A stretch of 23,678 bases of DNA from a virus. A model generated the notes under the pieces. It did not search any database, had not been told where the DNA came from, and was given only the letters and a program-made list of their open reading frames with translations. Positions 1 to 23,678 of the stretch are shown one piece after another; position 1 is the first letter of the stretch; every line of letters starts with the position of its first letter. The stretch covers positions 1 through 23,678 of IMG/VR virus record IMGVR_UViG_3300033148_002497; one strand, written 5' to 3'. The translations under genes and the position numbers were made by a program.

Positions 1-2
1 CG

Positions 3-26
3 GTGTTGATGAAAGCGGTGGAATGA
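3..26 (+). CDS. possible 3' end of an upstream gene (partial)
   Basis: Frame 3 is open from the window edge and stops at TGA 24-26, giving a tail that reads VLMKAVE. Genes here are packed head to tail, so this is probably the end of the preceding gene. Only seven codons are visible and no function can be given. Confidence 0.25.
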   Translation: MLMKAVE

Positions 27-64
27 TGGAAGATGCCAGGGCATCAAACAGAAAGGGGACAACT

Positions 65-418
65 ATGACAGACAAAGACCATGAAGGGGTTATTGATGAA
101 ACTGAACGGGATTGTTCTACAACAATCTTGACGGCGGATGAATACAACCGGTTGTTGGTGGATATGAAACCCGGAGTTAATCCAGGCACAACCGTTCCCA
201 ACGTGACGTTGAAGCGGCTGTTAGGATTCCAGCGGGCATGGGAAGTGATCGGACACACGGACCCGGAAGACCTGAACATGTTGCGGAAGCTGTCCCACCA
301 TGAACTGTTGGCTGAATGTATCAGGCGGACCAGCGTGACCAAGCGGATGTGGACAGGGGCTATGAAAATCTATGGTCAGACAGGCTTCAGCAAACTGTTG
401 GACTATGTGAAGGGATAA
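65..418 (+). CDS. hypothetical phage protein, 117 aa
   Basis: I do not recognise this family. The protein is soluble, has no membrane segment or cysteine cluster beyond single Cys residues, and has an acidic N-terminus followed by a helical C-terminal half (LTADEYNRLL, LRKLSHHELLAECIRR). The start at 65 is chosen because it follows AAAGGGG with a 6-nt spacer. An in-frame ATG at 23 would extend it but has no good ribosome site. The stop lies 2 nt before the next start, so the two genes are probably co-translated. It contains one of the rare GAG triplets of the window (174-176). Confidence 0.75.
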   Translation: MTDKDHEGVIDETERDCSTTILTADEYNRLLVDMKPGVNPGTTVPNVTLKRLLGFQRAWEVIGHTDPEDLNMLRKLSHHELLAECIRRTSVTKRMWTGAMKIYGQTGFSKLLDYVKG

Positions 419-420
419 AC

Positions 421-972: not shown

Positions 973-990
973 TGTTGGACAGGGGGGAAC

Positions 991-1212: not shown

Positions 1213-1225
1213 TTAGGGGGAAACA

Positions 1226-1432
1226 ATGCGGGAAAGGTTATGTGAAGATTGTGGGGAACCAATACCGGAAGCCAGATTGAAGGCCAGACCTTTAGCCAGG
1301 CTGTGTGTGGGTTGTCAGGAACAGGCGGAAGATGACGGCAAGTTTCAGCGGCCGTTGATGGACTTCAAACCGCACATGAAGTGCGGGGAAGTGGAAAGTG
1401 TTGAATCGGTGTTCTACAGGGGGACGGTGTGA
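1226..1432 (+). CDS. TraR/DksA-type zinc-finger protein, 68 aa
   Basis: Residues 5-31 match the C4 zinc finger of the DksA/TraR family: C6-x2-C9-G, then the IPEARLKARPLARLC stretch, with C27-x2-C30-Q closing the site. DksA and the short TraR-like proteins of plasmids and phages bind the secondary channel of RNA polymerase and shift promoter choice. TraR itself is about 73 aa, so the size fits. This version starts right at the finger, with little of the acidic N-terminal helix that enters the channel in TraR, and carries a roughly 35-residue tail after the finger instead. The RNAP-binding role is therefore an inference. Start: AGGGGG-AAACA-ATG. It overlaps the next gene by 4 bp. Confidence 0.82.
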   Translation: MRERLCEDCGEPIPEARLKARPLARLCVGCQEQAEDDGKFQRPLMDFKPHMKCGEVESVESVFYRGTV

Positions 1433-1830: not shown

Positions 1831-1831
1831 T

Positions 1832-2527: not shown

Positions 2528-2535
2528 GGGGAACT

Positions 2536-3171: not shown

Positions 3172-3220
3172 ACACATCCAGGGCTACATTGGGTTTTTGG
3201 GATAACTTCGGGGGTGAAAC

Positions 3221-4261: not shown

Positions 4262-4659
4262 ACCGCAAAGAATTTCTTGTTGACAGGTTTTCCGTGAAAC
4301 ACGGGGAAAAGGGCCTGGAATTTGAACATGCCTTCATCAACGGAACGGAAGCCGTGCCGCATCTTCAGGCGGTTGCGGACAACAAGGCTGTCTTGAAGAT
4401 TGTGATTGAACCGGTCACACCAACTTCATTCATCGGCCGCCCGCTTGGTCACATTGAATCTGGTTATGCCCGCAAGCCCGGGGAACCTATTTGCAAGGTG
4501 TGCAACGGTCAGGTGGAATGTAGGTGCGGAAGACAGGCGGAACAGGATGCGGAAGCGGCCGCCCGGGGGAAAAGCGATAAGCAACCAGAACCACCGGCCC
4601 CACCAAAAAAGCCGGAATCAACCCCGACACCAGGTGATGGACAACCACAGCTTCCCTGA
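4258..4659 (+). CDS. hypothetical protein with Cys cluster and Pro-rich tail, 133 aa
   Basis: Residues 1-75 look globular and beta-rich (LKIVIEPVTPTSFIGRPLG). A cysteine cluster follows (CKVCNGQVECRCG), probably one zinc site, and then a disordered Ala/Glu and Pro/Lys-rich C-terminus. GTG 4258 overlaps the upstream TGA and follows AAGGGGG with a 5-nt spacer. Function unknown. Confidence 0.65.
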   Translation: MNRKEFLVDRFSVKHGEKGLEFEHAFINGTEAVPHLQAVADNKAVLKIVIEPVTPTSFIGRPLGHIESGYARKPGEPICKVCNGQVECRCGRQAEQDAEAAARGKSDKQPEPPAPPKKPESTPTPGDGQPQLP

Positions 4660-4843: not shown

Positions 4844-5231
4844 AACTGACCATGACTTTATTCGGTCCCATCTGTTGAAGGGTGTGTTCCCGCCCGAAGC
4901 CCCACCACCGGACCCACGGTTTCAGCTTGACCAGTTGGCCAAAACGGAATGGTCACCGGGCTTTGAAGAATTGATGCGGAACCGGCTTGTGTTGGGTGCC
5001 TTCCGGTATGGTCTGTTGGATGACCCAACAAAACCACAGTGGGACCGGATGACACGCATCAAACAGGAAGTGGAACGCTATATGGAAGGCGGCAACCTGG
5101 AATGTTTGGTGGACATTGCCAACATGGCACTATTGGAATTTGTGGAAGGAAAGCATCCCAAGCGTCACTTCAAAGCAAGTGATGGTGGGTTGCATTGTCA
5201 AATAAAGAAAGGAAGACGAATAAATGATTGA
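4830..5231 (+). CDS. MazG-like/dNTP pyrophosphohydrolase-like protein, 133 aa
   Basis: The C-terminal helical part reads VLGAFRYGLLDDP, then WDRMTRIKQEVERYMEGGNLECLVDIANMALLEFVEGKHPKRHF. A long helix with the E..E/D..N pattern after a Y-rich helix resembles all-alpha NTP pyrophosphohydrolase-like phage proteins that carry an LVDIAN-type motif. The lone cluster E-x3-Y...E-x3-D-x2-N could bind Mg. This is recognition by pattern, not by a firm family hit. Lying immediately upstream of thyX (8-bp overlap) supports a role in nucleotide metabolism. ATG 4830 is preferred over 4821 because AAGG would touch the earlier ATG. Confidence 0.68.
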   Translation: MKIFETDHDFIRSHLLKGVFPPEAPPPDPRFQLDQLAKTEWSPGFEELMRNRLVLGAFRYGLLDDPTKPQWDRMTRIKQEVERYMEGGNLECLVDIANMALLEFVEGKHPKRHFKASDGGLHCQIKKGRRIND

Positions 5232-5883
5232 TGTAATCAAACCGAAGGTGGAATTTTTGGATGGGTTGGAACCGGAAAGTGTTGCCGGGATGATGCGGCT
5301 GTTGGAACGTGCCGCCCGCACCTGTTACAAGACAGAAGAAAGGGCCGGGCCTGGAACAGCGGATAAGTTAATAAAGAACATCCTTTCCAGGAAACCGTTT
5401 CCGCATGAATCAGTTATTGAACACCGGGTCATCACTGTGAAGTTCATCTGTGACCGGTCAGCTTCCCACCAGCTTGTGCGCCACCGTCTTGCGGCCTACA
5501 GCCAGGAAAGCCAGCGGTATTGCAATTACAACAAGTCAGGCAACCTGGAAGTGATTTGCCCACCCACCATCCAAGCAATTCCAGCAATGATGAACGCATG
5601 GGTGAATCATGTGGAACTGCAATATCTGTTCTATAAGGAAATGGTGACGGCAAAGATTCCGCCGGAAGATGCCCGTTCAGTCCTTCCGAATTGCACCAAG
5701 ACCGAAGTGGTCACCACCTACAACCTTAGACAGTGGCGGCATTTTCTAAGGATTAGAACGGACAGTCACGCACAGTGGCAAATCCGGGGCCTTGCGTTGA
5801 TGATTCTTGCTGAATTCCGTGGTAGGATTCCCATCATCTTTGATGACGTTGGGCCGGAAGAAATCACACCAGTGGAATTCTGA
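5224..5883 (+). CDS. thyX: flavin-dependent thymidylate synthase ThyX
   Basis: ThyX makes dTMP from dUMP using FAD, NADPH and methylenetetrahydrofolate. The diagnostic RHRx7S motif is present as R86-H87-R88 with S96 in QESQRY. Supporting features are the upstream FPHESVIEHRVITVKFICDR, with the folate/FAD-contacting HESVIEH, and the downstream NLRQWRHFLRIR with the conserved R-x-W/H-F-x2-R. At 219 aa the length is normal for the family and the protein appears intact. Phages use ThyX to boost dTTP supply independently of host ThyA. It overlaps the MazG-like gene by 8 bp, so both likely act in one nucleotide-supply unit. Confidence 0.96.
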   Translation: MIDVIKPKVEFLDGLEPESVAGMMRLLERAARTCYKTEERAGPGTADKLIKNILSRKPFPHESVIEHRVITVKFICDRSASHQLVRHRLAAYSQESQRYCNYNKSGNLEVICPPTIQAIPAMMNAWVNHVELQYLFYKEMVTAKIPPEDARSVLPNCTKTEVVTTYNLRQWRHFLRIRTDSHAQWQIRGLALMILAEFRGRIPIIFDDVGPEEITPVEF

Positions 5884-5902
5884 TGGTCTGAAAGGGGGGG
5901 CT

Positions 5903-6169: not shown

Positions 6170-6183
6170 GAAAGGGGACAATT

Positions 6184-7695
6184 ATGTTGAATGAAAATTG
6201 GAAGAAATACGCTTTGATGCTTGTTGCCGCCGTTGGTGGCATCTTGGCAATTGTCACACAATGTATCAATGACGGCGGGGACACCCCTGTCAATCCACCG
6301 GACCCACCGGCCAACACCAGCACCATTCAGTGGCACAGGGGTGACCTGAAGATGTTGAACGGGACGTGGGAAACGGTCAGTCCATCACTGTGGGCCGCCC
6401 GTGGTGAAATCCTGGACCTGGTCATCCAGACTGACAGCCAGGAATGTTTACCGCTGTCCATCAGCGGTGAAGGGGTTACAGCCAAATATTTTGAAATGGA
6501 AACCACCCAAACCTATGAACCGTCTTATCAGGGGGCCTTGGTCGGTTCCTGGTATGACCCACTACCGGTTGCCAATCAGCTTTGTGACCACAGCCCTGTG
6601 TGGGTGGAAATCCATGTGGCCAGTGATGCGGAAGCCGGAACAGCGGACATCCAGGTGTGTGACCTACCGGTTCAGTTGAACGTCATTGACTTCACACTTC
6701 CGGCTTTGCCGTCCTTTCCTATCTATATGGAAATTGGGTCATGGGGTGTGGTCCGTGGGCATGGCCTACCGGAAAGCACCAACGTGTCTGTCCAGGCACC
6801 ATTGACTAGGGCCTATGTTGATGAATTGCGGGCACACCGCGTGGAACCCTACAAGCATTACATCACCGTTCCGGATGTCAGTGCGGGGGTCCTGAACGTG
6901 GACCTGTGGGATGCCTATGGTGGGTCTTTCAGACAGCTTGTGGTTGATGGGGCCTTGGCACCAATTCAGTTCCCGGCCCTTGTATGGAACGGGTCACTTC
7001 AGCGGAATGTGTTGCGGCCGGAAGCATACTTCCGGGCCATTGAAGCGTTCCTTGTGGCGGAAGACATCCAGGCATGGACTTACTTGCGGGATGAACCGCC
7101 TATGTCAGCCATGTCCGAAGTGGCTGGATGGGCCGCGTCCATCAAACAGTGGGCACCACATTTGATGGTCATGGTCACCACGGAAGCCCATGCGGTCTTG
7201 CGGCCGGTGGTGGACATCCTGGCCCCGGTCATGGACCAATACAACATGCCGGGCCGAATCCAGGCGGACCAATACACCATGGACTTGTGGCTTTACACAT
7301 CTTGCATGGAACACGGATGCCACATTGTTGGAACCCACAACGGTGTTCCGGGCATGGTGCTGGACCACACGGGGATGCACCCCCGGATGTTCCCGGCGGT
7401 TGCGTGGCGGTTGGGGGCCAAGGCGGCCTTGTATTACAACACCACGGAAGCCTATGCATCCGCTGACAGATATGAACGGTTCCACGGGAATTATGATGGT
7501 GTGTTGTTCTACCCCGGTGACCTGGAACCCATTTCCAGCGTCCGGCTGAAGCTGGTCCGCCGTGGGTCAACAGACCTGGAATTCTTGACCAGGGCACCGG
7601 AAGGAACAGTCATCCCCATCACAGATGCCAGGACGTGGGAACACAACTGGCAAACGTGGGAAGACCTTATCCTGTCCATCAAGAAGGGGATGTGA
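6184..7695 (+). CDS. secreted or membrane-anchored GH123/DUF4091-like glycosidase
   Basis: 503 aa. An N-terminal hydrophobic segment (about residues 9-26, YALMLVAAVGGILAIVTQ) ending at Cys27 looks like a signal peptide or anchor. Gln at -1 makes a lipobox unlikely. Residues 50-200 form a beta-rich accessory part. The catalytic part has the adjacent acidic pair D303-E304 in YLRDEPP, the position of the Asp-Glu pair that performs substrate-assisted catalysis in GH123 N-acetyl-beta-galactosaminidases. It ends with the family signature DGVLFYPG...PISSVRLKLVRRGSTDLEFL. The MFPAVAWRLGAKAALYYNTTEAY stretch matches the barrel strand preceding it. Substrate is unknown. Its place among early-type genes, not tail genes, is odd. 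Start AAAGGGG-ACAATT-ATG. Confidence 0.82.
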   Translation: MLNENWKKYALMLVAAVGGILAIVTQCINDGGDTPVNPPDPPANTSTIQWHRGDLKMLNGTWETVSPSLWAARGEILDLVIQTDSQECLPLSISGEGVTAKYFEMETTQTYEPSYQGALVGSWYDPLPVANQLCDHSPVWVEIHVASDAEAGTADIQVCDLPVQLNVIDFTLPALPSFPIYMEIGSWGVVRGHGLPESTNVSVQAPLTRAYVDELRAHRVEPYKHYITVPDVSAGVLNVDLWDAYGGSFRQLVVDGALAPIQFPALVWNGSLQRNVLRPEAYFRAIEAFLVAEDIQAWTYLRDEPPMSAMSEVAGWAASIKQWAPHLMVMVTTEAHAVLRPVVDILAPVMDQYNMPGRIQADQYTMDLWLYTSCMEHGCHIVGTHNGVPGMVLDHTGMHPRMFPAVAWRLGAKAALYYNTTEAYASADRYERFHGNYDGVLFYPGDLEPISSVRLKLVRRGSTDLEFLTRAPEGTVIPITDARTWEHNWQTWEDLILSIKKGM

Positions 7696-7696
7696 C

Positions 7697-7981: not shown

Positions 7982-8331
7982 ATGGATTGGTTGCCTATGG
8001 CATGTTCTTGTATATGTTTGTTGGTGGGCATGGTGACAACATCACCATCAGCAATGAACTGTGGGAATTTGACCGCTTCCTTGTCAGGGATTGCACCATG
8101 CAGATTGTTGACCTGGTGAACTTGAAACAGATGTTGCCGGACGGTCGGTGGGTGTCCATTGAAGGTGTGAACAATGACCCCGCGTTCCGGAAACACCTTC
8201 AGGAGGGTGTTGAATACTACAACACCCCTGAATATCTGGCCAAGCTGAAACGGTTGAACATGTCCTTGGGTTTTTGGCAACGCAAGATGAAGCCGTTGAA
8301 TTGCCGGAAGATTCGGCTGGGTGATGACTGA
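7978..8331 (+). CDS. hypothetical protein, 117 aa
   Basis: The N-terminus is hydrophobic (NGLVAYGMFLYMFVGGHGDN), possibly one short membrane segment; the rest is soluble and basic towards the end. No family recognised. It starts in an ATGA overlap with the previous gene, with AGG five bases upstream. It is the last gene of the left operon: a promoter and a strong terminator follow. It contains an AGGAGG (8201-8206), one of the few GAG-containing sites. Confidence 0.6.
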   Translation: MNGLVAYGMFLYMFVGGHGDNITISNELWEFDRFLVRDCTMQIVDLVNLKQMLPDGRWVSIEGVNNDPAFRKHLQEGVEYYNTPEYLAKLKRLNMSLGFWQRKMKPLNCRKIRLGDD

Positions 8332-8367: not shown

Positions 8368-8513
8368 ACTTGTAGTGAAGTCTGATTGTTTAAGAGCATA
8401 AAGACACTATTTCAGGGGGGACCAAACTATGAACATGCGGGATTAAAGCCCCGCACCTACAATAGAATATGGTTAGCATACTAATGGGGGGCTTGACCGG
8501 CCCCCCATTTTTT
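8368..8513 (+). ncRNA. candidate small RNA with 5-codon leader ORF
   Basis: This non-genic interval runs from a candidate promoter to a strong terminator. It begins with a tight hairpin TTCACT-TGT-AGTGAA (8365-8379). It then has AGGGGGG followed by an ATG at 8429 opening a five-codon frame, M-N-M-R-D, stop at 8446. A second hairpin, TGCGGG/CCCGCA (8436-8455), overlaps that mini-ORF, and the Rho-independent terminator ends it. It could be an sRNA, an attenuator or a leader-peptide relic. No known family is recognised. Confidence 0.35.
8484..8513 (+). terminator. strong Rho-independent terminator
   Basis: A perfect 9-bp stem, ATGGGGGGC (8484-8492) with GCCCCCCAT (8500-8508), a 7-nt loop, then six T residues. 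It closes the left plus-strand operon and lies directly at the 3' end of the opposing endonuclease gene, so it may serve both directions. Confidence 0.88.
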
Positions 8514-9007
8514 CAATACTTATGTTTTTCTATTCTTCCGCGTCCGGTCTGATTTAATCGTTTCATTTTTTTCCAACACCCCAAACGGAACTTTTTTATT
8601 TGTGGTGTTGCATCCCACCGGCTTTTGATTCTTGGGAAGTCCAAAACAAGTTGTGCCTGTTTCTTTTTCAGTCGTAGGTGTTCAATGATTTGTTTCAGGA
8701 ATGGGCGGCAATATCTGCCAGCAATAGACCATTCCGCAAGATGTCTTTGGCCCGGCCTTTTCCTAATCCATATATACCCGATGCCGCCCATTTCTTTCTG
8801 TAAGCCTTTTAAGTGTTTCGGTTCACCCCCTATCTTTATACTTGTTTCAAAACTTTCACCACGCTTTCTATCGCCTATGGTTGTTAGTTTGTCCCGCCTG
8901 ATGATTAATATAGAACCGTCCCCGTCAATCAGTCCGGCCAGGTAGTGGCATAAAGATTTGGGGAATTTTGGGATGTTTATATCTTTTCCTGTATCTTTGA
9001 ATTTCAT
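8513..9007 (-). CDS. LAGLIDADG homing endonuclease, single motif
   Basis: The motif LAGLIDGDG occupies residues 23-31 and is followed by GSI, the standard catalytic helix and first strand. The rest (ETSIKIGGEPKHLKGLQKEMGGIGYIWIRKR, EWSIAGRYCRPFLKQIIEHLRLKKKQAQL) matches the alpha-beta fold of these nucleases. With only one motif in 164 aa it should act as a homodimer cutting a long pseudo-palindromic site. It is free-standing, not in an intron or intein. It is more AT-rich than its neighbours with a different codon use, suggesting mobility. ATG 9007 is chosen; TTG 9025 would add six residues. Neither has a strong SD. It is on the minus strand, opposing the surrounding operons. Confidence 0.9.
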   Translation of the reverse strand: MKFKDTGKDINIPKFPKSLCHYLAGLIDGDGSILIIRRDKLTTIGDRKRGESFETSIKIGGEPKHLKGLQKEMGGIGYIWIRKRPGQRHLAEWSIAGRYCRPFLKQIIEHLRLKKKQAQLVLDFPRIKSRWDATPQIKKFRLGCWKKMKRLNQTGRGRIEKHKY

Positions 9008-9076
9008 GGTTGTGGTTCTTATCAATTAATTTGTGTTGTGTAAATAGTTGGTTTTCACCATCACTTTTCAACACAG

Positions 9077-9454: not shown

Positions 9455-10337
9455 AATTTGTTACATTGAAAAGAAGTTCAGTGCCGGTTCAGAAAAGTTG
9501 ATTGGACAGGCCAATCAAATCATCACGGACTTTGCTGACCAGGGGTTCAAGCTGACCTTGCGGCAATTATATTATCAGTTTGTGGCCCGTGATTTGATTA
9601 AGAACATCCCAACTGAATACAAGCGGATGGGGTCCATCATCAATGATGCCCGGTTGGCCGGGCTGATTGATTGGAAGGCCATTGAAGACCGGACCCGCAA
9701 CATCAAAGGCAACACACATTGGGACAGCCCTGGTGAAATTGTCCGGTCCTGTGCCGATGACTATACAATTGATATGTGGAAAGGCCAGACCTACAGGCCG
9801 GAAGTCTGGATTGAAAAGGATGCTTTGATTGGTGTCATTGAACGGGTTTGCACAAACCTGGACGTGACCTTCTTTTCTTGCCACGGCTACAACAGCCAGT
9901 CTGAAATGTGGGCCGGTGCCCAACGGTTGAAGTGGTATGCCGCATACCAGGGACAGACCCCAATCATCATCCATCTTGGTGACCATGACCCTTCAGGGAT
10001 TGATATGTCCCGTGACATCCTGGACAGGTTGACGTTGTTTATGGGGGGGATGAAGGTCAACCGGATTGCCTTGAACGCTGACCAAGTTGAGAAATACAAT
10101 CCGCCGCCCAATCCAACCAAGGTGACTGACAGCCGGGCGGCCGGTTACATCAAGAAGTTTGGCCGGAAAAGTTGGGAACTGGATGCCCTGGAACCAGCCG
10201 TGATGGAAAAGCTGATTGAAAAGACGGTGCTGAAACTTCGGGATGATGATGCCTATGAACAGTGTGTGGCCAAGCAACGGCAAGGCCAGAACCGTCTTCA
10301 GGAAGTGGCGGATGACCTGGAAGAATCCGAAGAATAA
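9447..10337 (+). CDS. Toprim protein resembling TopoVI-A/Spo11
   Basis: 296 aa. The Toprim core is clear: E123 in VWIEKDAL and the D179-x-D181 pair in IIIHLGDHDPSGIDMS, which coordinate Mg in topoisomerases and Spo11. Upstream, residues 37-43 read TLRQLYY, the arrangement of the winged-helix domain carrying the catalytic tyrosine in TopoVI-A/Spo11 (SxRxxYY). The protein may thus cut DNA by a tyrosine link or act as a Toprim nuclease. It lacks a visible B-type GHKL ATPase partner in the window. Downstream of the core is a basic region and an acidic tail. Its role in replication, recombination or defence is open. The start overlaps the micro-protein by 8 bp. Confidence 0.78.
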   Translation: MPKICYIEKKFSAGSEKLIGQANQIITDFADQGFKLTLRQLYYQFVARDLIKNIPTEYKRMGSIINDARLAGLIDWKAIEDRTRNIKGNTHWDSPGEIVRSCADDYTIDMWKGQTYRPEVWIEKDALIGVIERVCTNLDVTFFSCHGYNSQSEMWAGAQRLKWYAAYQGQTPIIIHLGDHDPSGIDMSRDILDRLTLFMGGMKVNRIALNADQVEKYNPPPNPTKVTDSRAAGYIKKFGRKSWELDALEPAVMEKLIEKTVLKLRDDDAYEQCVAKQRQGQNRLQEVADDLEESEE

Positions 10338-11166: not shown

Positions 11167-11610
11167 ATGAATAAGAAAACTTTGAATCTGGTGGAACTTC
11201 ACAAAGGCAAGACTACTTCTGAACATGACCTGGTCTGGAAGGGCAAGGCCCTTCACTTGGCAATCAATCCGGCACCCAAGGGGGCCTGGAATCTTATCTA
11301 TTGGTTCTGGTGTCATCATGAAGCGGTTGAAATGATGCCCGGGGTATTCATGCCGGGCCAAGACCACAAGCAACCGTTCACCGGCATAGTGGTGAAGCAA
11401 CGCTGGTGGCACGGGCTGTCGGGCACCACGGAAGACAAGTTGTTGGAACGCGGTCTAGTGAAGCTGAAAGCACTGACCGAAAAGTTGAAAGGGGAAATTG
11501 AAAGGCATGAACAAATCCAAGACAAGTTTGGAATCAGAAAAGACAATAACCAGGATTCAAAAGGCTGTTGCACAGTGCAAGAAGTGCCGCCTTCACAAGA
11601 CCCGGCATAG
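11167..11610 (+). CDS. hypothetical protein, 147 aa, overlapping UDG gene
   Basis: Globular N-terminal part with aromatic residues (WNLIYWFWCHHE, IVVKQRWWHGL), then a coiled helix (LLERGLVKLKALTEKLKGEIERHEQ). No family recognised. The last ~35 codons overlap the uracil-DNA glycosylase frame by 104 bp and encode a low-complexity tail, so an earlier stop may have been lost by frameshift. Start: AGGGGATTGGC-ATG, about 20 nt downstream of a predicted promoter. Confidence 0.65.
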   Translation: MNKKTLNLVELHKGKTTSEHDLVWKGKALHLAINPAPKGAWNLIYWFWCHHEAVEMMPGVFMPGQDHKQPFTGIVVKQRWWHGLSGTTEDKLLERGLVKLKALTEKLKGEIERHEQIQDKFGIRKDNNQDSKGCCTVQEVPPSQDPA

Positions 11611-12091
11611 AACTGTGCCGGGTGAAGGTTCACCAGGCGGAATCCTAATCATCGGGGAAGCCCCTGGTGCCGATGAAGATGACCAGGGCCGTCCGTTTGT
11701 GGGCCGGTCAGGGAAGTTGTTGCGGACATTGATAACCAAGGCCGGGATGAATGAAAAAAACACGTTCATCACCAACACTGTCAAGTGCCGTCCACCAGGT
11801 AACCGCAACCCCCTGTCAGATGAACGGGCGGAATGCAAAGGTTTCCTGAACCGGCAAATCAAAGCGGCCAAGCCCAAGGTTGTTGTGTTGGTTGGTGCGG
11901 TGGCCATGAAGAACATCCTGAACACCACCAAGACCATTGGCCAGCGGCGGGGCTGTAGGATTGTCAAGAAACACGTCACCTATGTTCCGGTGTATCATCC
12001 GGCCTATTGCTTGCGGCAACCTTCAGCCAGGAAGGTTCTGTTGAAGGACTTGCGGAAGGCCAAGGCACTTTATGATTTGCTGGTGATATGA
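11507..12091 (+). CDS. uracil-DNA glycosylase, family 4 (Fe-S type)
   Basis: Removes uracil from DNA to start base-excision repair. Family-4 marks are all present: four Fe-S cysteines C24, C27, C94 and C110 (CKKC, then KC and EC sixteen apart), motif GEAPG (50-54) followed by DQGRPFVGRSGKLL, the TNTVKCRPPGNRNP segment, and the HPAY motif (164-167) near the C-terminus. The protein is full-length at 194 aa. ATG 11507 is chosen; the SD is indirect (AAAGGGG 13 nt away, or AAAGG close by). Together with ThyX and the MazG-like protein it suggests control of uracil in phage DNA. The start lies inside the previous gene. Confidence 0.92.
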   Translation: MNKSKTSLESEKTITRIQKAVAQCKKCRLHKTRHRTVPGEGSPGGILIIGEAPGADEDDQGRPFVGRSGKLLRTLITKAGMNEKNTFITNTVKCRPPGNRNPLSDERAECKGFLNRQIKAAKPKVVVLVGAVAMKNILNTTKTIGQRRGCRIVKKHVTYVPVYHPAYCLRQPSARKVLLKDLRKAKALYDLLVI

Positions 12092-12519: not shown

Positions 12520-12805
12520 AAATAAGTTGATGCGCCGGGACTTATTACTGACAAGGCAGAAAGGCAATGTCAGTAGCACCCTTCTTTATTTAATCCGTGA
12601 AACTGAAAACGGAACCGAACGTCCAATAATAGATGGATTTCTGGCACACCTTAAATGTGACATTTCTGATTTATTGATTCAAACTGAACAGCTTGCCAAA
12701 GATTTAGGGTTCAATGTGGATGAGATTAGGACGTTGGGTGGGTGCCGTGTGCGGGAACGCAAGAAGGAATGTAACAAAGAAAAGAAAGCCGCTTATTGGC
12801 TATAG
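12506..12805 (+). CDS. hypothetical protein, 99 aa
   Basis: Helical protein with a basic, cysteine-containing tail (CRVRERKKECNKEKK). It is AT-richer than its neighbours. ATG 12506 overlaps the protease gene by 14 bp; the upstream purine/GT tract gives only a weak SD. No family recognised. Contains one GAG (12722-12724). Confidence 0.58.
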   Translation: MRLDENKLMRRDLLLTRQKGNVSSTLLYLIRETENGTERPIIDGFLAHLKCDISDLLIQTEQLAKDLGFNVDEIRTLGGCRVRERKKECNKEKKAAYWL

Positions 12806-12820: not shown

Positions 12821-13060
12821 ATGACAGTCTGGACACACCACAGGGGCCACCCCATCCGCTATGACTGGAACCAAAGAGTGTGGGTGTATGCGGACAATGG
12901 GGAACCGGCTGACCTGGAACGCCGATGTGTCCGGTGTGGAAAGTCACCAACACCTGAAGGGCATGATGCCTGTCTTGGTGTCATTGAAGGTGCCATTTCA
13001 GCATGTTGTGGCCACGGGGTAACAGAACTGTATGTCAAAAAAACGAAAAGACCGAATTAG
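12821..13060 (+). CDS. conserved phage protein with Cys/His cluster, 79 aa
   Basis: N-terminal W-T-H-H-R-G-H-P-I-R-Y-D strand, then a zinc-ribbon-like region: CVRCGKSPTPEGHDACLG, then ISACCGHG. The wording CxRCG..PTPEGHDACLG....ACCGHG recurs in a family of small uncharacterised phage and bacterial proteins that I recognise only as hypothetical. ATG 12821 is chosen because GGGGGG-ACAAGG precedes it; the upstream ATG at 12806 overlaps the G-run. Confidence 0.7.
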   Translation: MTVWTHHRGHPIRYDWNQRVWVYADNGEPADLERRCVRCGKSPTPEGHDACLGVIEGAISACCGHGVTELYVKKTKRPN

Positions 13061-13325: not shown

Positions 13326-13340
13326 AAAAGGAGGATTAGA

Positions 13341-13574
13341 ATGGTAACATTTATTGTGTCTGTTGTAGTAGGTGCCGTTGTGGTGGCCGTTGTTATGGGA
13401 ATACTTTTTGCGGGTGCATTGCTGTTGGATGAAGCAAATGAATATGGTTGGTGGAAAGCGATATGCAACCTTTTTATTCTTGTGTGTTTTCTCTCAATTG
13501 TTGTGGCCGTGTTTGTTTTGGTGGCATACGCAATTGGTTCTAGTGCCCTTTATATTTGGGGTTTGCTGCTATAG
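13341..13574 (+). CDS. small two-helix membrane protein, 77 aa
   Basis: Two strong hydrophobic segments (VTFIVSVVVGAVVVAVVMGILFAGALLL and FILVCFLSIVVAVFVLVAYAIGS) separated by a short acidic, tryptophan-containing linker. The size and topology fit a holin, but no lysis gene is adjacent and nothing else supports that. It is preceded by AAGGAGG, the only start in the window with a canonical GAG-containing SD, and itself holds two CTC triplets, so it may be a recent arrival. Last gene of the operon. Confidence 0.65.
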   Translation: MVTFIVSVVVGAVVVAVVMGILFAGALLLDEANEYGWWKAICNLFILVCFLSIVVAVFVLVAYAIGSSALYIWGLLL

Positions 13575-13709: not shown

Positions 13710-14069
13710 ATGAATGTCTGGCAAACCCTGAAGGACCGCATCCAAGGCAAGGCACCAAAGGGTGCCCGCCGGTCCAGCCGTTGGACCAAGGCCCGGAAGC
13801 GTCATCTGGAAAAGAACCCACGGTGTGAAGTGTGCGGGTCAAAGAAGGCCCTGGAAGTCCACCACGTCATTCCCTTCAGCATTGCACCAGACCTGGAACT
13901 AGACCCATCCAACTTCATCAGCCTGTGTGAAAACAAGAAATATGGAATCAACTGTCACCTGTTGCTTGGCCACCTTGGGAACTACCGGCGGTTCAATGCC
14001 AGCGTGAAAGCTGATGTGATGTATCTTCGGATGCGGTTGGGCAAGGTGCCTTCCACAACCCCACTTTAG
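13710..14069 (+). CDS. HNH endonuclease, 119 aa
   Basis: Classic HNH fold: zinc pair C39-x2-C42, catalytic H51-H52 in LEVHHVIPF, the Asn at N68 (DPSNFISLC), then C73 and CH...GH at 82-88. The length is typical for phage HNH proteins, which act as homing nucleases or assist terminase in packaging. Here it lies about 2 kb from the terminase genes, just before a recombinase. ATG 13710 has no SD and sits 6 nt after a candidate -10. A very basic N-terminal region (KGARRSSRWTKARKRH) would help DNA binding. Confidence 0.9.
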   Translation: MNVWQTLKDRIQGKAPKGARRSSRWTKARKRHLEKNPRCEVCGSKKALEVHHVIPFSIAPDLELDPSNFISLCENKKYGINCHLLLGHLGNYRRFNASVKADVMYLRMRLGKVPSTTPL

Positions 14070-14134: not shown

Positions 14135-14149
14135 TACCACACCGTGGTC
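14135..14149. promoter_or_regulatory. operator C, inverted repeat
   Basis: TACCACACCGTGGTC, containing the 12-bp near-perfect palindrome ACCACACCGTGGT. It lies 7 nt upstream of the recombinase -35, about 32 bp (three helical turns) from operator D, so cooperative binding is possible. Confidence 0.55.
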
Positions 14150-14157
14150 CCACTGTT
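14146..14157. repeat. direct repeat copy 2, upstream of recombinase
   Basis: GGTCCCACTGTT, second copy of the repeat at 14082. It ends at the first base of the recombinase -35 box. Confidence 0.4.
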
Positions 14158-14185
14158 TGACATCTATACCACATTGCGGTACTAT
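14157..14185 (+). promoter_or_regulatory. recombinase promoter, leaderless, operator-controlled
   Basis: A perfect TTGACA (14157-14162), 17-nt spacer and TACTAT (14180-14185), then six bases to ATG 14192. No SD. This is the best sigma70 promoter in the window. The spacer holds operator D. Confidence 0.8.
14167..14181. promoter_or_regulatory. operator D, inverted repeat in promoter spacer
   Basis: TACCACATTGCGGTA, exact reverse complement of operator A. It fills the spacer and overlaps the first two bases of the -10 box, so a bound protein would exclude RNA polymerase. Confidence 0.68.
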
Positions 14186-14191
14186 TTAGTC

Positions 14192-14725
14192 ATGAAAGCA
14201 TTAGACCAAAACAAGTTCCTGACAGACAAAGAATTGAACAGCCTGTTGACCCTGTGCAATCAACACAGCGGACAGCGGGATTCCATCATCATCCGCTTCA
14301 CCCTGTTCACGGGTGCCCGGGGATGTGAAGCCCTGGCCGTGAAGAAACGTGACCTGGCCGGTGGGGCCGTCACCATCAGGGGGGCCAAGGGGTCCAATGA
14401 CCGGGTGGTGCCTTTGGATGCGGGGTTCTTCCAGGAAGTGTCCGAGTATGCCAGGAACATGGCCGATGATGACCGCCTGTTCCCAATAGCGGTCCGGACC
14501 TTCAGACACATCTGGAACCTTTATAGGCCCAACCACAAGAAGGGTGTCCACTGTTTGCGGCACACCTACGGGGTCCGGTTGTATCAGAACTGTGAAAACG
14601 TGTTCACGGTGAAGTCAGCCTTGGGACATGTTTCAATTTCCAGCACAATGGTCTATTTGGATTTTGTGGAAAGCCAGCGGAAGCTGAAGCAAGCGGCAAA
14701 GGGGATGTGGAAAAAGGTTGCTTGA
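14192..14725 (+). CDS. minimal tyrosine recombinase/integrase, 177 aa
   Basis: The catalytic domain is complete: R43 (TGARGCEAL), K66 in the beta-hairpin (GAKGSNDRVVPL), H120-x2-R123 (HCLRHTYG), H146 (LGH) and the nucleophile Y155 (MVYLDF). These residues cut and rejoin DNA through a 3'-phosphotyrosine. The N-terminal core-binding (SAM-like) and arm-binding domains of ordinary phage integrases are missing, so this is roughly half the usual size. It may integrate the phage, resolve dimers or invert DNA. ATG 14192 is set by the promoter geometry (leaderless, no SD). An upstream GTG at 14144 would fall before the promoter's -35. Operators C and D suggest tight control. Confidence 0.92.
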   Translation: MKALDQNKFLTDKELNSLLTLCNQHSGQRDSIIIRFTLFTGARGCEALAVKKRDLAGGAVTIRGAKGSNDRVVPLDAGFFQEVSEYARNMADDDRLFPIAVRTFRHIWNLYRPNHKKGVHCLRHTYGVRLYQNCENVFTVKSALGHVSISSTMVYLDFVESQRKLKQAAKGMWKKVA

Positions 14726-15481: not shown

Positions 15482-15484
15482 CCC

Positions 15485-16522: not shown

Positions 16523-16563
16523 ATATCTATGTAGGGGAACAATTTAACTTTCAAGGGGTGGGT

Positions 16564-18090
16564 TTGGCCGCAACAGCACAAGTCATCAGTGACACAAACA
16601 TTAAGCAATTCCGCAATAGACAGCGGGATGAAATGATGTTGAAGAAAAAGAAGGTCATCCGGTATGCCTTCTTGCGGGACCAAATCCTGAAGCGTGACCG
16701 CATTGACCTACTGATGACAGAAGTGTTGGGCTACAAGGTGGAAGACTTCCACTTGTTGATGTGGCACCACCGCCGGAAATGCTACAAGCGGATTGGGAAA
16801 CAGAAGTGGCATTTGTCATTGGCCCCCCGTGGTGGCGGCAAGACCACCATTCAGACCATCAGTTCAATCATCCTGGACATCCTGAAAGACCCGGACATCC
16901 GCATCCTGATTGCATCCAAGACCGATTCAAACGCGGTTGAAATGCTTTCAGAGATCAAGAAGAAACTGAAAAGCAAGAAACTTGTCCGCATCTTTGGTGA
17001 ACAGATTGGCGACATCTGGAATGATGGTGTCATCAATGTGAAGGGCCGTGCGGAAGATGCACCCAAGGGCAAGACTGTCAGCACCATCGGTATCGGTTCA
17101 GCCCTGGCTTCCAGACACTTTGACAAAATCTATGCTGATGACTTGATTGATGAAGACAACAGCACCACTGAAGCACAGCGGACAAAAATCTATAAATGGT
17201 TCTTCAAAATCCTTGACCCCACCCTGTTGCCGCACGGTGAAATGTCCATGATTGGAACCAGGTATCACCATTCAGACTTGTATGGGACGTTGATTGACAA
17301 ACTGTTCACCAAGAAAAACAAGTTGAACAAAGTCACTAAACAGTATTACATCCGCATTCCGGCCCTAATCAAAAAGAAGAACGCAAAGAAGTTCACCCGC
17401 AAATCCAAAAAATATATTTCCTTTTGGCCTGAACAGTTCAGCGTCAAGTTCCTTCTGAAGAAAAAGAAGACCCAAGGAACCATCATCTTCAATGCCCAAT
17501 ATCAAAATGATGTTGAAGCAATGAAGGGTAAGATTTTCAAATATGATTGGTTTGAATGGTTCAAGAAGGATGAAATCAACATCCAAGACCTGATTATTTT
17601 CCAGGGTGTGGACTTGGCAATCAAACAAAAGGAAGATGCGGACAAGTTTGCCCATGTCACCATTGGTGTGGATAAGAAGACCAAGGACATATATGTCCTG
17701 AATTACTATAACCGGATAACGCATTACACCAAACAAAAACGCATCATCTGGAAACGGTTTCAGAAGTATGACCCGTTGCGGGTTTATGTTGAGGCAAACG
17801 GGTATCAAGGGGCCTTGCTTCAGGACATGCGGTCAGACCCAAAGCTGGCAACAATAAGGGCTTTTCCGCTTTTCACGGAAAAGGACAAGACCACCAGGGC
17901 ATGGAAATTGTCAGCGTATTTTGAACGCGGTCAGATTCATTTGCTTGAAGGAATGACTGAAATGCAAGAACATTTGTTGAAGATGCCGGACGGTAGGTAT
18001 AAAGATTTATTTGATGCCCTTGATATTGCCGTGTCCGCCGCCTTTGGGAAGAAACGGAAAATCAGGAAATCAGAACCGGGGGTTATATGA
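16564..18090 (+). CDS. terL: terminase large subunit
   Basis: The ATPase-nuclease motor that packages DNA into the prohead. Walker A is at about residue 86-95 (LAPRGGGKTT), followed by the adenine/coupling strand ILIASKTDSNAVEML and Walker B at about 190 (YADDLIDED). The RNase H-like nuclease half has its acidic residues at about 350 (FQGVDLA), about 415 (VYVEANGYQG) and near the C-terminus (DLFDALDIAVSAA). At 508 aa it is full-length. TTG 16564 is preferred (AAGGGG-TGGGT-TTG); GTG 16558 would put the SD in contact with the codon. It overlaps the portal gene by 4 bp. Confidence 0.95.
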   Translation: MAATAQVISDTNIKQFRNRQRDEMMLKKKKVIRYAFLRDQILKRDRIDLLMTEVLGYKVEDFHLLMWHHRRKCYKRIGKQKWHLSLAPRGGGKTTIQTISSIILDILKDPDIRILIASKTDSNAVEMLSEIKKKLKSKKLVRIFGEQIGDIWNDGVINVKGRAEDAPKGKTVSTIGIGSALASRHFDKIYADDLIDEDNSTTEAQRTKIYKWFFKILDPTLLPHGEMSMIGTRYHHSDLYGTLIDKLFTKKNKLNKVTKQYYIRIPALIKKKNAKKFTRKSKKYISFWPEQFSVKFLLKKKKTQGTIIFNAQYQNDVEAMKGKIFKYDWFEWFKKDEINIQDLIIFQGVDLAIKQKEDADKFAHVTIGVDKKTKDIYVLNYYNRITHYTKQKRIIWKRFQKYDPLRVYVEANGYQGALLQDMRSDPKLATIRAFPLFTEKDKTTRAWKLSAYFERGQIHLLEGMTEMQEHLLKMPDGRYKDLFDALDIAVSAAFGKKRKIRKSEPGVI

Positions 18091-19946
18091 AAAAAGTCAG
18101 ACTAATCAAACAGGGAAAAAGCGGCGGCCGTGTCTCAAGACGTATAAAAGTGAAGGACACGGACGGCAACAAGCATGTGTTGAAGGCCACTGTCATCACA
18201 GTCAGCAAGACTGAAAGTGCGGAAATCACAGATGACCAGGTGACCGGCCTGTCAGCATATAAGGTTATCCGGCCCCCTTTGAATCAAGCTGAACTGGCTG
18301 TCCTGTCAGAAGTGTCCAATGAATTGGAACAGGTTGTGGATTCCATGGCCGTGGGCATTCACGGATTTGGTGGCCGCTTGAAGATGCGGGGAATGACCGA
18401 TGACCAGGCCAAAGCCAACAAAGCAATCATTGGCAAAGAAAAGGCATGGCTTGACGGCATCTTTACATTCCCGAACCCCAAGCAAACCATGCGGAAGTTT
18501 TTGAAGACCACCACCAAGGACAAAGAAAAAACCGGCAACGCATATTGGGAACTTATTAAGTCCAAGACCAAGCCGGATTTTTATTCCTGTATGAACAAGC
18601 TGGACGCGGCCACAATGTTCATCACTAAGCCAGACCGTTCCTTTGCCCGCAAGAAACTGAACTATGTGAATGACAAGTTTGAATTGCGGTCCCGCACCTT
18701 CAGCCACAAGTTCCGGACTTACCTTCAGGTGGTTGGGAACAAGAAAGTCTTTTTCAAGGAATTTGGTGACCAGCGTGTGGTTGACCGCCGCAATGGTACA
18801 GTCATTGCGTCTTCCCCGGAAGCGTGGTTGAAGCTGGATGCCGTGGACAGGGCCAAGACCCCCAAGAAGATATGGGCCAATGAAGTCTACCACCACAAAC
18901 TGGAAACATCCCGCCGGACCCCATACGGTATGCCCCGATATACTGGCAACATCATTGCGGTGAAGGGTTCCCGTTCATCCGATGAAACAAACATCATCAC
19001 CCAACAGAACAACCATGTCCCATCAATGGTCATCAGCGTGGCCGGTGGCCAGTTGACAGAAGGTTCCATTGAACGGGTGAAGGAATTTGTGGACACGCAA
19101 ATCAAAGGCGATTCCAACTATTCCAAGTTCCTGGTTCTTGAAGCGGAAAGTGACCATGACGGTCTGTCCAATGCTGGAAGCCTGAAGGTGGAAATCAAAC
19201 CGTTGTCTGAAAACCAGCATCAGGACCAGTTGTGGCAAGACTACGATAAGAACAACGCTTCCAAATTGCGGCGGTCTTTCCGGTTGCCACCTATAATGGT
19301 AGGCCATGTGGAAGATTTGAACCGGGCAACAGCACAAGAATCAGAACGTATGGCTGAAAAATACGTCTACAACCCGGAACGCGGTGATGATGATGAAGCA
19401 ATCAACCAAATCCTGATGCAACAGGGCTTCAGGTTTTGGGTGTGGAAGTCCAACAGCCCCAACGTCACCAATGACCAAGACCTGGTGAAAATCCTGACCG
19501 GCGGTGAAAAGACCGGCGGCATGACACCCAACAGGGCCACAGCAATCCTGGAAGACATCTTTGGAAAAGAACTTCCCCCGTTTGCAAAGGACCCACAATT
19601 CAACCCCGACCTTCCCTTCAGCTTCAACCTGGCCCGCTTGGTCCAAGGTGCGGGCATGGCCAATGCGGCTGGAACAGCCAGCCCACAAGGCCAGACACAG
19701 AACCCACCCAAAGCACCGGGACGGCCACAGAAAAACAATACCCTTCGGGACTTGGCCAATGTCAGTGAAGATGTTGTGGACCAGTTTGACCCGGACAACA
19801 TCATGAAGCACCTGGTGGAAGACCCTATGAAAACCCTGGAAACGCTGGCCTTTGCAAAGGACCGGATTGAAGACAGCCTGGACATAGATGCCTTTGGTTC
19901 TGAACAAGGTGACTATGATGAACAGGATGATGAACATGCTGCGTGA
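18087..19946 (+). CDS. portal protein, PBSX-like
   Basis: 619 aa, directly after terL. Middle and C-terminal segments match PBSX-family portals: GNAYWELIKSKTKPDFYSCMNKLDAATMFI, EVYHHKLETSRRTPYGMPRYTGNI, then the NNHVPSMVISVAGGQLTEGSIERVKEFVDTQIKG crown-stem region and FRLPPIMVGH. It forms the dodecameric channel at the prohead vertex. The C-terminus is long, with a Pro/Gln linker (GTASPQGQTQNPPKAPGRPQ) and an acidic tail. ATGA overlap with terL, SD GGGGG. Confidence 0.9.
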   Translation: MKKVRLIKQGKSGGRVSRRIKVKDTDGNKHVLKATVITVSKTESAEITDDQVTGLSAYKVIRPPLNQAELAVLSEVSNELEQVVDSMAVGIHGFGGRLKMRGMTDDQAKANKAIIGKEKAWLDGIFTFPNPKQTMRKFLKTTTKDKEKTGNAYWELIKSKTKPDFYSCMNKLDAATMFITKPDRSFARKKLNYVNDKFELRSRTFSHKFRTYLQVVGNKKVFFKEFGDQRVVDRRNGTVIASSPEAWLKLDAVDRAKTPKKIWANEVYHHKLETSRRTPYGMPRYTGNIIAVKGSRSSDETNIITQQNNHVPSMVISVAGGQLTEGSIERVKEFVDTQIKGDSNYSKFLVLEAESDHDGLSNAGSLKVEIKPLSENQHQDQLWQDYDKNNASKLRRSFRLPPIMVGHVEDLNRATAQESERMAEKYVYNPERGDDDEAINQILMQQGFRFWVWKSNSPNVTNDQDLVKILTGGEKTGGMTPNRATAILEDIFGKELPPFAKDPQFNPDLPFSFNLARLVQGAGMANAAGTASPQGQTQNPPKAPGRPQKNNTLRDLANVSEDVVDQFDPDNIMKHLVEDPMKTLETLAFAKDRIEDSLDIDAFGSEQGDYDEQDDEHAA

Positions 19947-21030: not shown

Positions 21031-21060
21031 ATGTTGGAATCTGTAAAGATTTGAAAAAAA

Positions 21061-21089
21061 TTTGCTTGTTAAGTATAACAATGTATAAC
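21061..21089 (+). promoter_or_regulatory. promoter before the AAA+/protease gene, same box as 16494
   Basis: TATAAC (21084-21089) with TTTGCT (21061-21066) 17 nt upstream, embedded in the repeat TAAGTATAACA-ATGTATAACAT (21070-21091). Only one base differs from the copy before terL. The short 21031-21110 gap holds only this promoter and the SD. Confidence 0.64.
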
Positions 21090-21110
21090 ATGTAAACACG
21101 GGGACTATGG

Positions 21111-23678
21111 ATGTCAGAAAAAAAATATAAGACTATTGGTGAAGGTGGTGCCCATCAGCACGGCGTTAGTGTTCCGGAAGGAACCAACGTGGATGGGATA
21201 CACAAGCATCTGTTCTTTGCTTTTGACCGCCTATTGATGACCGAACTAGACGGCCGCCACAGTCACCCCATAAAGATTAAGTCAAACAAGACAGGGCCGG
21301 AAGGCCGGAACCATGAACATGCTGTGATGCTTCATACTCAACAAGGCATCCAATCCTTCAAAACCAAAAACGTCACCCCGCACATCCACGAACTACAATC
21401 CGGGAAGACAACCCTTTCAGGATTGCACACCCACCAACTGGTTCTTGCGGACCAGTCCTACCTTTCCCTTCTACCCGGTGACTTGTTGGAAGAAATTGCA
21501 GCGGCGGCCAAGGGGGTTCCAGCCCTAAAAAACCTGAAGTTGGAAAGTGATGAACCACTTGAAACCAACTTTGGAATGGTGAAGCGTTTGAACAAACCCG
21601 CTTTCAGGAAAGTTCTGAAGTGGGCTTGTGCCAAAACCATTATGAAAAGCCTGTCCCGATTAAAGGACGGTTATCAGGTGGAAAGCCTGATACTTTCCCG
21701 GGACCGCTTTTCTGACATCGGTGTTGCCCGCCGTTTCATCATTGACCTTGGAATGAATCCACAGTCTTCCCTGGAAGGAACGGACAGTCAGTCCCCGTTC
21801 ACGTTTCAAATCCGTTCAAGGGAACGCTTTGACCAATCCAGCCTGAACCGCATCCTGGTCACGGACGGTGTGATTGCCGTTGTGGGCCTGATGGTGGAAG
21901 GTGAAGTTGGCCAGCAAATGGAATCCGAATCAGCCGAAGAACAGCCGGAAGTCCGGGAAGCCCCCGCGTCCGATTCCCTGACAGAAAATGCTTCCGCACC
22001 CCCGGCCAAGCCGGATGTTGTGGAAGGCACCATTGATGAAATGTCAGACAGTTTGAAGGAAAAGTTTGACCGTGTCCGTGGTCTTTGCAAATCGGAAGAC
22101 GGTGAAGCGGTGGAATTTGTGGACTGGAAGACCGGCAAACCAGTGACCGGTTCAGCACAAGCCAAGTTGACTGAAGTGGCGGAAGCCTACGGGATTGACC
22201 GCAAGTATGTAACTATTGAATACCCGGAACGCCGCTTTGTTGCCCACCTGACAACTGACAAAAATTATGAAGTGGTCAGTGCGGCCTATGCTGACCTTGG
22301 TGAACAAGAAGATGATGATGAATCAGACATGCCGAATTATTCCAGTCTGGTCATCAAAGGCAAGAATGTGGATGCGTTCATCATCACCACACAGGATGAA
22401 ATGCGGTACGGAAAATCCCTGGTCATTTTCTTTGATGACCCCGCTGACCTGGATGACATCTTCAAGACAAAGGTCAAGAATTACAAGTTTGGTGCCTACC
22501 AGGTGAAGTTGACCATGCAAGGCCCCATCCTTATAACAGTTGAAAATAAGAATGCCGTGAAGCCCATTCTTGATGAAGAACTGTTGGCCAACTTGAAGCG
22601 GGACACGGATGTGTTCTTCAGCAAGGAATCAGAAGATTTCTTCAACGGGAAGAATGACATTGGGGAAAAGATGCCATACAAGCGGGGCATCCTGATGTAT
22701 GGCCCCCCGGGCAACGGCAAGACCACCTTCATCAAAAGCTATTTGAAAACTTTTAAGAATGGATATGGCATCCTGTGTGAAGCACAGGATTTCTTTGGTG
22801 GGCTTGGCAAGTATCTGAAACAGGTGCTTGGTGCTGAAGCCAAGAAAATTATTGTCTTTGAAGACGTGGATGCCATTGCCTACAACTACCGGGCACGGTC
22901 AGAACTTCTGAATTTCCTGGACGGTGTGAACACGCAACAGAAGACCCTGTTCATTTGCACCACCAATTATCCATACAGGCTTGATGAAGCCCTGGCCAAA
23001 CGGCCTTCCCGCATTGACCAGAAATATATGATTGACCTTCCAAAGCTGAAGATGCGGAAGAAATTTCTGAAGCACTTTTTCAGGAAATTGACTGACAATG
23101 AACTTCATGAATTCGGTCTGGAAACGGAAGGCTTTTCAGGGGCTATGTTCAAGGAACTGTTTGTCCTGACAGGTCTTCAGAAGATTGGTGTGGGTGAAGC
23201 AATTGAAAGGTTGAAGGAACAGATGGAAATCACCAAGTCCGTTGTGGGCCGTGATGCCGTTCTTTCAGTTGTGGTCAAGGGCTACAAGCCCAAGGAAATC
23301 ACCAAGCGGTTCAAGCGGGCTTCCAGTTTGTTTGATCAACCCAAACGGAAAAGCAAGAAGGTTGTCAGGAAAAAGCTGGAACCGAAAAGCGTCAAAAGGA
23401 AACTAGGGTTTTTTCAGATTCTTCAGAAGTCTGATGACCAACGGTTGGCCACAGGCCCCATCCTTATACCGGAAACCTTTGACCTTCAGGCGGATATTGT
23501 CAGCATTGCAGAAATCACCAAGGCCATTCACAACTACATGTTGAAGTTGGCTTTCCGTGATGACCCCGAATTTTTGGAATCCTTGGGACTGTCCACAAAA
23601 TCGGCGCGTGGATTCATGCATGTTGAATTCAGCCGCAAGATTGCGTTTGTGGAAATCTATATTGCCCCGGTGGACTTT
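21111..23678 (+). CDS. HxH array + AAA+ ATPase + XkdF-like prohead protease fusion (partial, open at right edge)
   Basis: One frame is open for 856 codons to the window edge. Residues 1-108 hold six HxH motifs (15, 31, 50, 68, 91, 106) in a beta-rich segment. After a Pro/Glu linker near 270-310 and two helical-beta regions comes a classic AAA+ domain: Walker A GPPGNGKT (531-538), Walker B IIVFEDVD (580-587), sensor-1 TTN, and the arginine-finger region KRPSRID. A basic linker (RKSKKVVRKKLEPKSVKRK) leads to the XkdF-like protease start at about 780 (TGPILIPETFDLQADIVSIAEITKAIHNYM). Other XkdF-type proteins process the scaffold and capsid; here the protease would be joined to an unfoldase. ATG 21111 follows GGGG-ACTATGG. 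The catalytic end is beyond the window. Confidence 0.86.
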   Translation, partial: MSEKKYKTIGEGGAHQHGVSVPEGTNVDGIHKHLFFAFDRLLMTELDGRHSHPIKIKSNKTGPEGRNHEHAVMLHTQQGIQSFKTKNVTPHIHELQSGKTTLSGLHTHQLVLADQSYLSLLPGDLLEEIAAAAKGVPALKNLKLESDEPLETNFGMVKRLNKPAFRKVLKWACAKTIMKSLSRLKDGYQVESLILSRDRFSDIGVARRFIIDLGMNPQSSLEGTDSQSPFTFQIRSRERFDQSSLNRILVTDGVIAVVGLMVEGEVGQQMESESAEEQPEVREAPASDSLTENASAPPAKPDVVEGTIDEMSDSLKEKFDRVRGLCKSEDGEAVEFVDWKTGKPVTGSAQAKLTEVAEAYGIDRKYVTIEYPERRFVAHLTTDKNYEVVSAAYADLGEQEDDDESDMPNYSSLVIKGKNVDAFIITTQDEMRYGKSLVIFFDDPADLDDIFKTKVKNYKFGAYQVKLTMQGPILITVENKNAVKPILDEELLANLKRDTDVFFSKESEDFFNGKNDIGEKMPYKRGILMYGPPGNGKTTFIKSYLKTFKNGYGILCEAQDFFGGLGKYLKQVLGAEAKKIIVFEDVDAIAYNYRARSELLNFLDGVNTQQKTLFICTTNYPYRLDEALAKRPSRIDQKYMIDLPKLKMRKKFLKHFFRKLTDNELHEFGLETEGFSGAMFKELFVLTGLQKIGVGEAIERLKEQMEITKSVVGRDAVLSVVVKGYKPKEITKRFKRASSLFDQPKRKSKKVVRKKLEPKSVKRKLGFFQILQKSDDQRLATGPILIPETFDLQADIVSIAEITKAIHNYMLKLAFRDDPEFLESLGLSTKSARGFMHVEFSRKIAFVEIYIAPVDF

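Follow-up and report, generated by a model that had tools for sequence, protein, structure and literature searches.

Near-total loss of the trinucleotide GAG/CTC from a phage genome fragment and depletion in some of its relatives, probably through avoidance of a host defence

The trinucleotide GAG and its complement CTC are almost absent from a 23,678-base stretch of phage DNA (IMG/VR virus record IMGVR_UViG_3300033148_002497, positions 1-23678; the whole stretch is referred to here as the window), which raises the question of what has removed them. Only 18 GAG/CTC sites are present, where a first-order Markov model predicts 508.5 and base composition 736, the latter in line with the ~740 given in the original prediction. 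In 200 Markov simulations of the window the count was 516 ± 22 and never fell below 452. A Markov-based count of all trinucleotides, suggested as a check when the deficit was first noticed, ranks GAG/CTC lowest of the 32 strand-symmetric trinucleotides with an observed/expected ratio of 0.035, far from expectation, the next lowest being CGA/TCG at 0.22.

The remaining sites are readily enumerated. GAG occurs on the plus strand at 174-176, 1834-1836, 2266-2268, 2363-2365, 2782-2784, 8203-8205, 8394-8396, 10089-10091, 12722-12724, 12876-12878, 14444-14446, 16951-16953 and 17791-17793, and at 13331-13333 within a ribosome-binding site described below. The sites on the minus strand, read as CTC, are two overlapping copies at 13491-13495 (starting at 13491 and 13493), one at 18134-18136 and one at 21337-21339. 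All 17 positions listed previously are genuine; the CTC at 21337 had been overlooked, giving the total of 18. No single protective context accounts for the residual GAG sites, the most frequent being TGAGT, AGAGT and the start-codon context ATGAGTG. We considered that they persist for lack of a synonymous escape and rejected this, as synonymous changes could remove 13 of 14 in the window.

The deficit extends across all frames, both strands and non-coding DNA, as originally proposed. On the coding strand both orientations are similarly low (GAG 14 observed/336 expected, CTC 4/178), and the 6,025 bases outside the listed open reading frames (ORFs) contain 6 sites where base composition predicts 185. 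At codon junctions there are 5 sites, compared to 171.7 ± 10.8 following a synonymous-codon shuffle that preserves both the proteins and the codon usage (ratio 0.03). An mRNA interferase would be expected to deplete the transcribed sense only, and the coding strand is poor in GAG and CTC alike. The shuffle at codon junctions together with the depletion of both orientations indicates that neither codon usage nor an effect at the mRNA level explains the deficit, and the suggestion that the pressure acts on DNA rather than on codons is borne out. The flanking bases make little difference: there are 6 GAGA, 1 GAGC, 5 GAGG and 6 GAGT where ~185 of each are expected, and none of the eight NGAG and GAGN contexts escapes depletion in the window or in three of the relatives introduced below (L056, G378 and G380).

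The start codons are the clearest sign of how strong the pressure against GAG is. The usual Shine-Dalgarno sequence is AGGAGG, and an A-to-G change within it abolishes GAG while the A-U pair with the anti-Shine-Dalgarno sequence becomes a G-U wobble. Among 31 chosen starts in the window, 15 have GGGG at -17 to -4, compared to 4.9% of random windows (binomial P = 3e-12), and just one has GGAG or GAGG in this interval, ATG 13341, whose AAGGAGG is the sole canonical ribosome-binding site and holds the GAG at 13331. The altered regions include GGGGGG upstream of ATG 991 (974-987, plus strand), acagggggacggt upstream of GTG 1429 (1412-1425, plus strand) and accgggggttat upstream of the portal gene ATG 18087 (18070-18083, plus strand); GGGG also precedes the starts at 1226, 2536, 2947, 3221, 4258, 6184, 11167, 11498, 13032, 15485, 15849 and 21111. 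Representative ribosome-binding sites are acaGGGGGgaacATG and cGGGGGtgaaacATG. Such AGGGGG sites should still pair with the anti-Shine-Dalgarno sequence through G-U wobble, and presumably serve in translation. When Shine-Dalgarno sites were scored with the same script, GAG was present in 6/6 in a near-normal relative (L017) and in 0/22 in the window; the script chose its own ORFs and starts, and the 13341 site falls outside its set. In a further relative, L001, 5 of 17 sites have GGGG and 4 have GAG, and this mixture could be a relic of earlier avoidance, albeit with small numbers.

The replacements show that GAG is lost through any kind of substitution, transversions at its central A among them. 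At fourfold-degenerate sites in the window, GGA is used before G in 0/139 instances, with GGT mostly taking its place, and xCT precedes C in 1/257, with A or C used instead. The portal genes of L001 and L056 share 73% nucleotide identity, and all 30 of the GAG sites in L001 are altered in L056, whereas the median trinucleotide is retained at 33%; the change is not polarised, such that L001 may have regained sites. Nineteen of the altered sites are GAA or AAG, and the other 11 are GTG, GGG, TTG, GTT, GAT or GCG. Selection against the GAG word in double-stranded DNA explains both the fourfold-site and the L001/L056 results.

The pressure on GAG is lineage-specific and quick to switch. Relatives were gathered from IMG/VR through the terminase, portal and AAA-protease genes, and their observed/expected ratios for GAG range widely. 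The strongest avoiders alongside the window are L056 (7.7 kb; 3/167, 0.02), L018 (12/94, 0.13), G380 (98.7 kb; 243/1850, 0.13, and low along its entire length) and G378 (18.5 kb; 41/292, 0.14), followed by G007 (108.9 kb; 540/1875, 0.29) and L013 (59/193, 0.31). Others are milder or near normal (L016, 0.56; L015, 0.67; L014, 0.70; L027, 0.76; L001, 0.77; L017, 0.89; L057, 0.90). Codon-junction ratios obtained with separate ORF calls follow suit, at 0.01 for the window and L056, 0.11 for G378, 0.13 for G380, 0.28 for G007 and L013, and 0.94 for L017. The portal tree places L001 and L056 as sisters (support 100/100), and six changes are needed to account for the depleted label. Four records are named from a single metagenome (3300022707), of which L018 and L055 are low in GAG and L017 and L027 are near normal. 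Because close and co-occurring relatives carry both states, the likely cause is something that differs between their hosts.

The two long genomes have a few GAG-rich patches, including HNH, GIY-YIG-like and tail-region genes (functions assigned by eye), as expected for recent arrivals being purged over time, although this is a small-number observation. G007 also contains, within segment L030 (5893-6885, minus strand), a C-5 cytosine DNA methyltransferase gene, here in a GAG-poor phage. In the 4.5-kb contig L018 the portal matches at either end (2-382 and 4403-4543) face opposite ways, perhaps an assembly artefact. Searches of annotated phages with the terminase, portal and topoisomerase yielded no close relative and matches with hosts of every kind, and a viral scan with the integrase gave no additional close relatives.

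GAG is not the only word avoided. In the window GATC (8/166), GCAG (17/134), GCGC (12/84) and CCCAG (3/46) are also rare, TCGA is absent, and 38 of the 64 six-base palindromes have no copies. The low GATC count fits avoidance of an orthodox palindromic Type II site. G380 has a different set (GATC 4/428, CCGG 2/126, GGACC 0/39, CTGAAG 1/121, TTTAAA 0/121, AACGTT 0/60), and G007 is poor in GATC, GGACC, CTGAAG, CAGCAG and others. The set thus varies by phage, and looks like the imprint of a restriction repertoire that is itself variable. Within the wider portal family, CAG is low in L063 (53/324) and CAC in L119 (60/248), each in all contexts; a weaker CAG shortage is seen in L086, L129 and L111. 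In GAG, CAG and CAC alike the central A is flanked by G or C, a post-hoc pattern that is only a lead.

We propose that the missing GAG reflects an extreme and recent avoidance of recognition sites in response to a host defence acting at GAG/CTC, and put the probability of this at roughly two in three. Hosts of the phage and of several, though not all, of its close relatives would carry a DNA-directed defence that strikes GAG/CTC in any flank, and each site lost would bring a small gain in survival, such that selection would remove GAG within codons and across their junctions, between genes and from Shine-Dalgarno sites, the last through the change from AGGAGG to AGGGGG. In its plainest form, the agent would most likely be a nuclease resembling those of restriction-modification systems with a three-base target, and it would need neither pairing nor a particular orientation of its sites, because both orientations have been purged. 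A host system reading a three-nucleotide core was among the causes offered originally, and is the best explanation left. The depletion is independent of frame and strand, and lineage-specific (0.02 to 0.90 among close relatives), both hallmarks of avoidance. GAG differs from an orthodox palindromic Type II site in being non-palindromic and low in every NGAG and GAGN context. Type III-like systems that cleave at head-to-head sites are disfavoured because both orientations are purged, when avoidance of one would be enough to escape cleavage.

The hosts are probably Bdellovibrionota, relatives of the predatory Bdellovibrio, as judged from the sequence relationships of the integrase. This tyrosine recombinase (14144-14725, plus strand; PF00589) links the phage family to the phylum, and is the sole family gene that reached a cellular genome. 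A pattern-based, non-exhaustive scan of 84,980 species gave one confirmed match, in a Bdellovibrionaceae metagenome-assembled genome, and a profile search with integrase alignment A4, which covered the Bdellovibrionota, gave strong hits for 95 of 369 genomes, nearly always with a single copy (E ~1e-38 to 1e-51); the nature of the scan and the one-phylum scope of the profile search make the assignment an inference. The Bdellovibrionota copies compared are 37-43% identical to that of the window, and the phage and plasmid matches listed are ~33% identical or less. The short (~180 aa), mostly single-copy tyrosine recombinase of these 95 genomes (e.g. L130-L133) is related to the phage integrase, and would seem to belong to the core genes in part of the phylum. 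The terminase profile (A2) identified no prophage in genome contigs, and only weak, distant terminases in the 369 Bdellovibrionota genomes.

A similar deficit in host genes would have pointed to a mutational bias of the host, as noted with the original prediction, and in the inferred host phylum only a mild shortage is seen. In 20 Bdellovibrionota stretches GAG is at 0.58-1.19 of expectation by Markov and 0.71-1.31 at codon junctions, most lying between 0.8 and 1.3 and none near 0.04. The Bdellovibrio-like stretches L134-L137 show this mild shortage (0.58-0.64 by Markov; 0.75-0.84 at codon junctions), in which the pressure seen in the phages may have left a mark on the hosts. Counts of GAGCTC in Bdellovibrionota revealed no genome-wide absence; this is a weak control, as the reversed word CTCGAG also holds GAG and CTC. 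A search of the literature on Bdellovibrio methylomes found nothing direct.

Several points weigh against the proposal of a GAG-directed host defence. The enzyme and the Bdellovibrionota host are both inferred, neither having been found or proved, and the integrase profile search ran in one phylum only. A 3-bp target is not known to us for any bacterial restriction enzyme, and our search of the literature on avoidance of such targets found nothing direct. The integrase suggests a temperate past for the phage, and strong site avoidance is more frequent in non-temperate phages. GAG is near normal in the Bdellovibrio bacteriovorus phage phi1422 (1163/1367 by Markov, junction ratio 0.97). Lastly, elimination of sites occurs almost only for orthodox Type II systems and is rare for other types (Rusinov et al. 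2018, PMC6286503): with a site called eliminated below 0.1, this applies to 7.1% of orthodox Type II sites and to <0.5% of those of other types. GAG itself falls below that threshold (observed/expected <0.1 with >15 expected), both in the window and in L056.

An unlikely but serious rival is that the host agent is a base-modifying toxin, for example a DNA ADP-ribosyltransferase of the DarT type that recognizes three bases of single-stranded DNA (the T of CTC or one G of GAG), loss of the motif then allowing replication to proceed. We regard it as serious because DarT targets are 3-4 bases long and DarT (PF14487) is present in 22 of 359 Bdellovibrionota genomes. DarT enzymes defend against phages and read TNTC (Thermus aquaticus) or TTT/TCT (enteropathogenic Escherichia coli, EPEC) (PMC7003065), and the guanine-specific DarT1 favours two G one base apart (PMC11543638); a three-nucleotide asymmetric target suits such enzymes better than it does classical restriction-modification. 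However, the known DarT motifs are not depleted in the window (TCT/AGA 574/514, TTT/AAA 1031/1289; the TNTC pattern was not counted separately), and the DarT literature examined contains no enzyme specific for CTC or GAG. DarT is also confined to 6% of genomes in the inferred host phylum, and the other avoided words resemble restriction sites.

Alternatively, a nuclease of the phage itself could cut host DNA at GAG and spare the GAG-free phage genome, and gain or loss of its gene would yield a patchy spread. HNH and homing-type endonuclease genes are present in the window (13710-14069, 8513-9025), but they resemble a terminase-neighbour HNH and a homing enzyme, and the additional avoided words differ among phages in the way that host repertoires do, making this reading improbable. 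It is also quite improbable that several ordinary restriction systems with longer GAG-containing sites (e.g. CCTC/GAGG, GAGTC, GAGCTC) jointly removed GAG. Many restriction-like words are indeed low in the same genomes, and in a distant relative, L103, most of the missing GAG is due to GAGG (17/103), but a combination of longer sites (CCTC, for instance) is disfavoured because the depletion is uniform over the flanks, which a few longer sites would not be expected to produce.

A mutational process such as deamination of C in CTC, offered with the original prediction, is highly improbable. It would account for GAA and AAG being the commonest replacements, but because GAG is also replaced via transversions and changes of the middle A, C deamination is not the main process: a deaminase would leave only C-to-T/G-to-A changes at the motif, which neither the fourfold-site nor the L001/L056 test shows, 11 of the 30 L001-L056 changes being impossible by this route. 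Nor can C-to-T turn the middle base of Shine-Dalgarno sites into G, and the difference between the sister phages L001 and L056 is a further argument against it. The suggested involvement of ThyX (5224-5883, plus strand; PF02511) and the uracil-DNA glycosylase superfamily protein (11498-12091, plus strand; PF03167) is not supported, as phages sharing these genes with the window (L012, L019-L025) are not strongly GAG-depleted, and we judge both genes unconnected with the deficit. Three of these ThyX-bearing phages, L023, L024 and L025, are almost devoid of GATC (4/166, 0/144 and 0/97) with GAG normal. A codon or compositional bias common to phage and host, for which the mild shortage in L134-L137 might speak, is just as hard to credit, since no host-side stretch approaches the junction ratio of the window.

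That palindromic restriction sites of 4-6 bp disappear from phage genomes is well established. What differs here is not the loss itself but the three-base non-palindromic target, the hundreds of sites and the altered ribosome-binding sites. The window resembles the published cases of site avoidance (PMC6286503) in having an observed/expected ratio of <0.1 with a large expectation in a double-stranded DNA phage, several restriction-like words and lineage specificity, and differs in those three respects. The 5'-CCA-3' mark of the SspABCD-SspE phosphorothioate defence (PMC9646914) likewise has a three-base asymmetric core, but the word avoided here is GAG rather than CCA, and CCA/TGG is at 0.94 of expectation in the window. 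DarTG (PMC7003065, PMC11543638) shares the short target of 3-4 bases and the action on phage DNA, but its motifs TTT and TCT are not avoided. Phage phi1422 (JQ177062) is a tailed phage of the inferred host group and lacks several 6-bp palindromes, but is not among the relatives listed and does not share the GAG deficit.

Other features of the window include the large terminase used as a query for relatives (16558-18090, plus strand; phrog_38, 8.9e-72) and the portal protein on which the family tree is based (18087-19946, plus strand; phrog_12). The protein encoded at 21111-23678 is an unusual fusion, with an AAA ATPase domain mid-protein and a C-terminal XkdF-type S78 protease domain; a copy in L018 is 53% identical. 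A 503-aa protein (6184-7695) has a hydrophobic N-terminus and a weak match to the GH123 catalytic domain, and a search for phage relatives of it returned none. No tRNA was found in the window. A search for an attP site (T-loop-like) gave a single match, inside the portal gene, which we judge irrelevant.

That a 3-bp asymmetric word has been almost wholly lost over genomes of up to ~100 kb implies that the defence reads an unusually short target, and comparison of the sisters L001 and L056 indicates that an entire purge can appear or vanish between close relatives. Ribosome-binding sites are seen here to be bent by a constraint at the DNA level. It is conceivable, as a tentative extension that we hold somewhat below even odds, that the host bacteria (Bdellovibrionota or others) carry a new anti-phage enzyme with an asymmetric S-A-S target (S being G or C), directed to GAG here and perhaps to CAG or CAC elsewhere, the words depleted in L063 and L119. 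Such an enzyme would be potent enough to have driven phages to recode hundreds of sites, Shine-Dalgarno sequences among them. The GAG signature should point to both host and enzyme, and it makes GAG content an indicator of host range within one phage family; should the hosts prove to be predatory Bdellovibrionota, it would also provide an opening onto the little-known defences of these bacteria.

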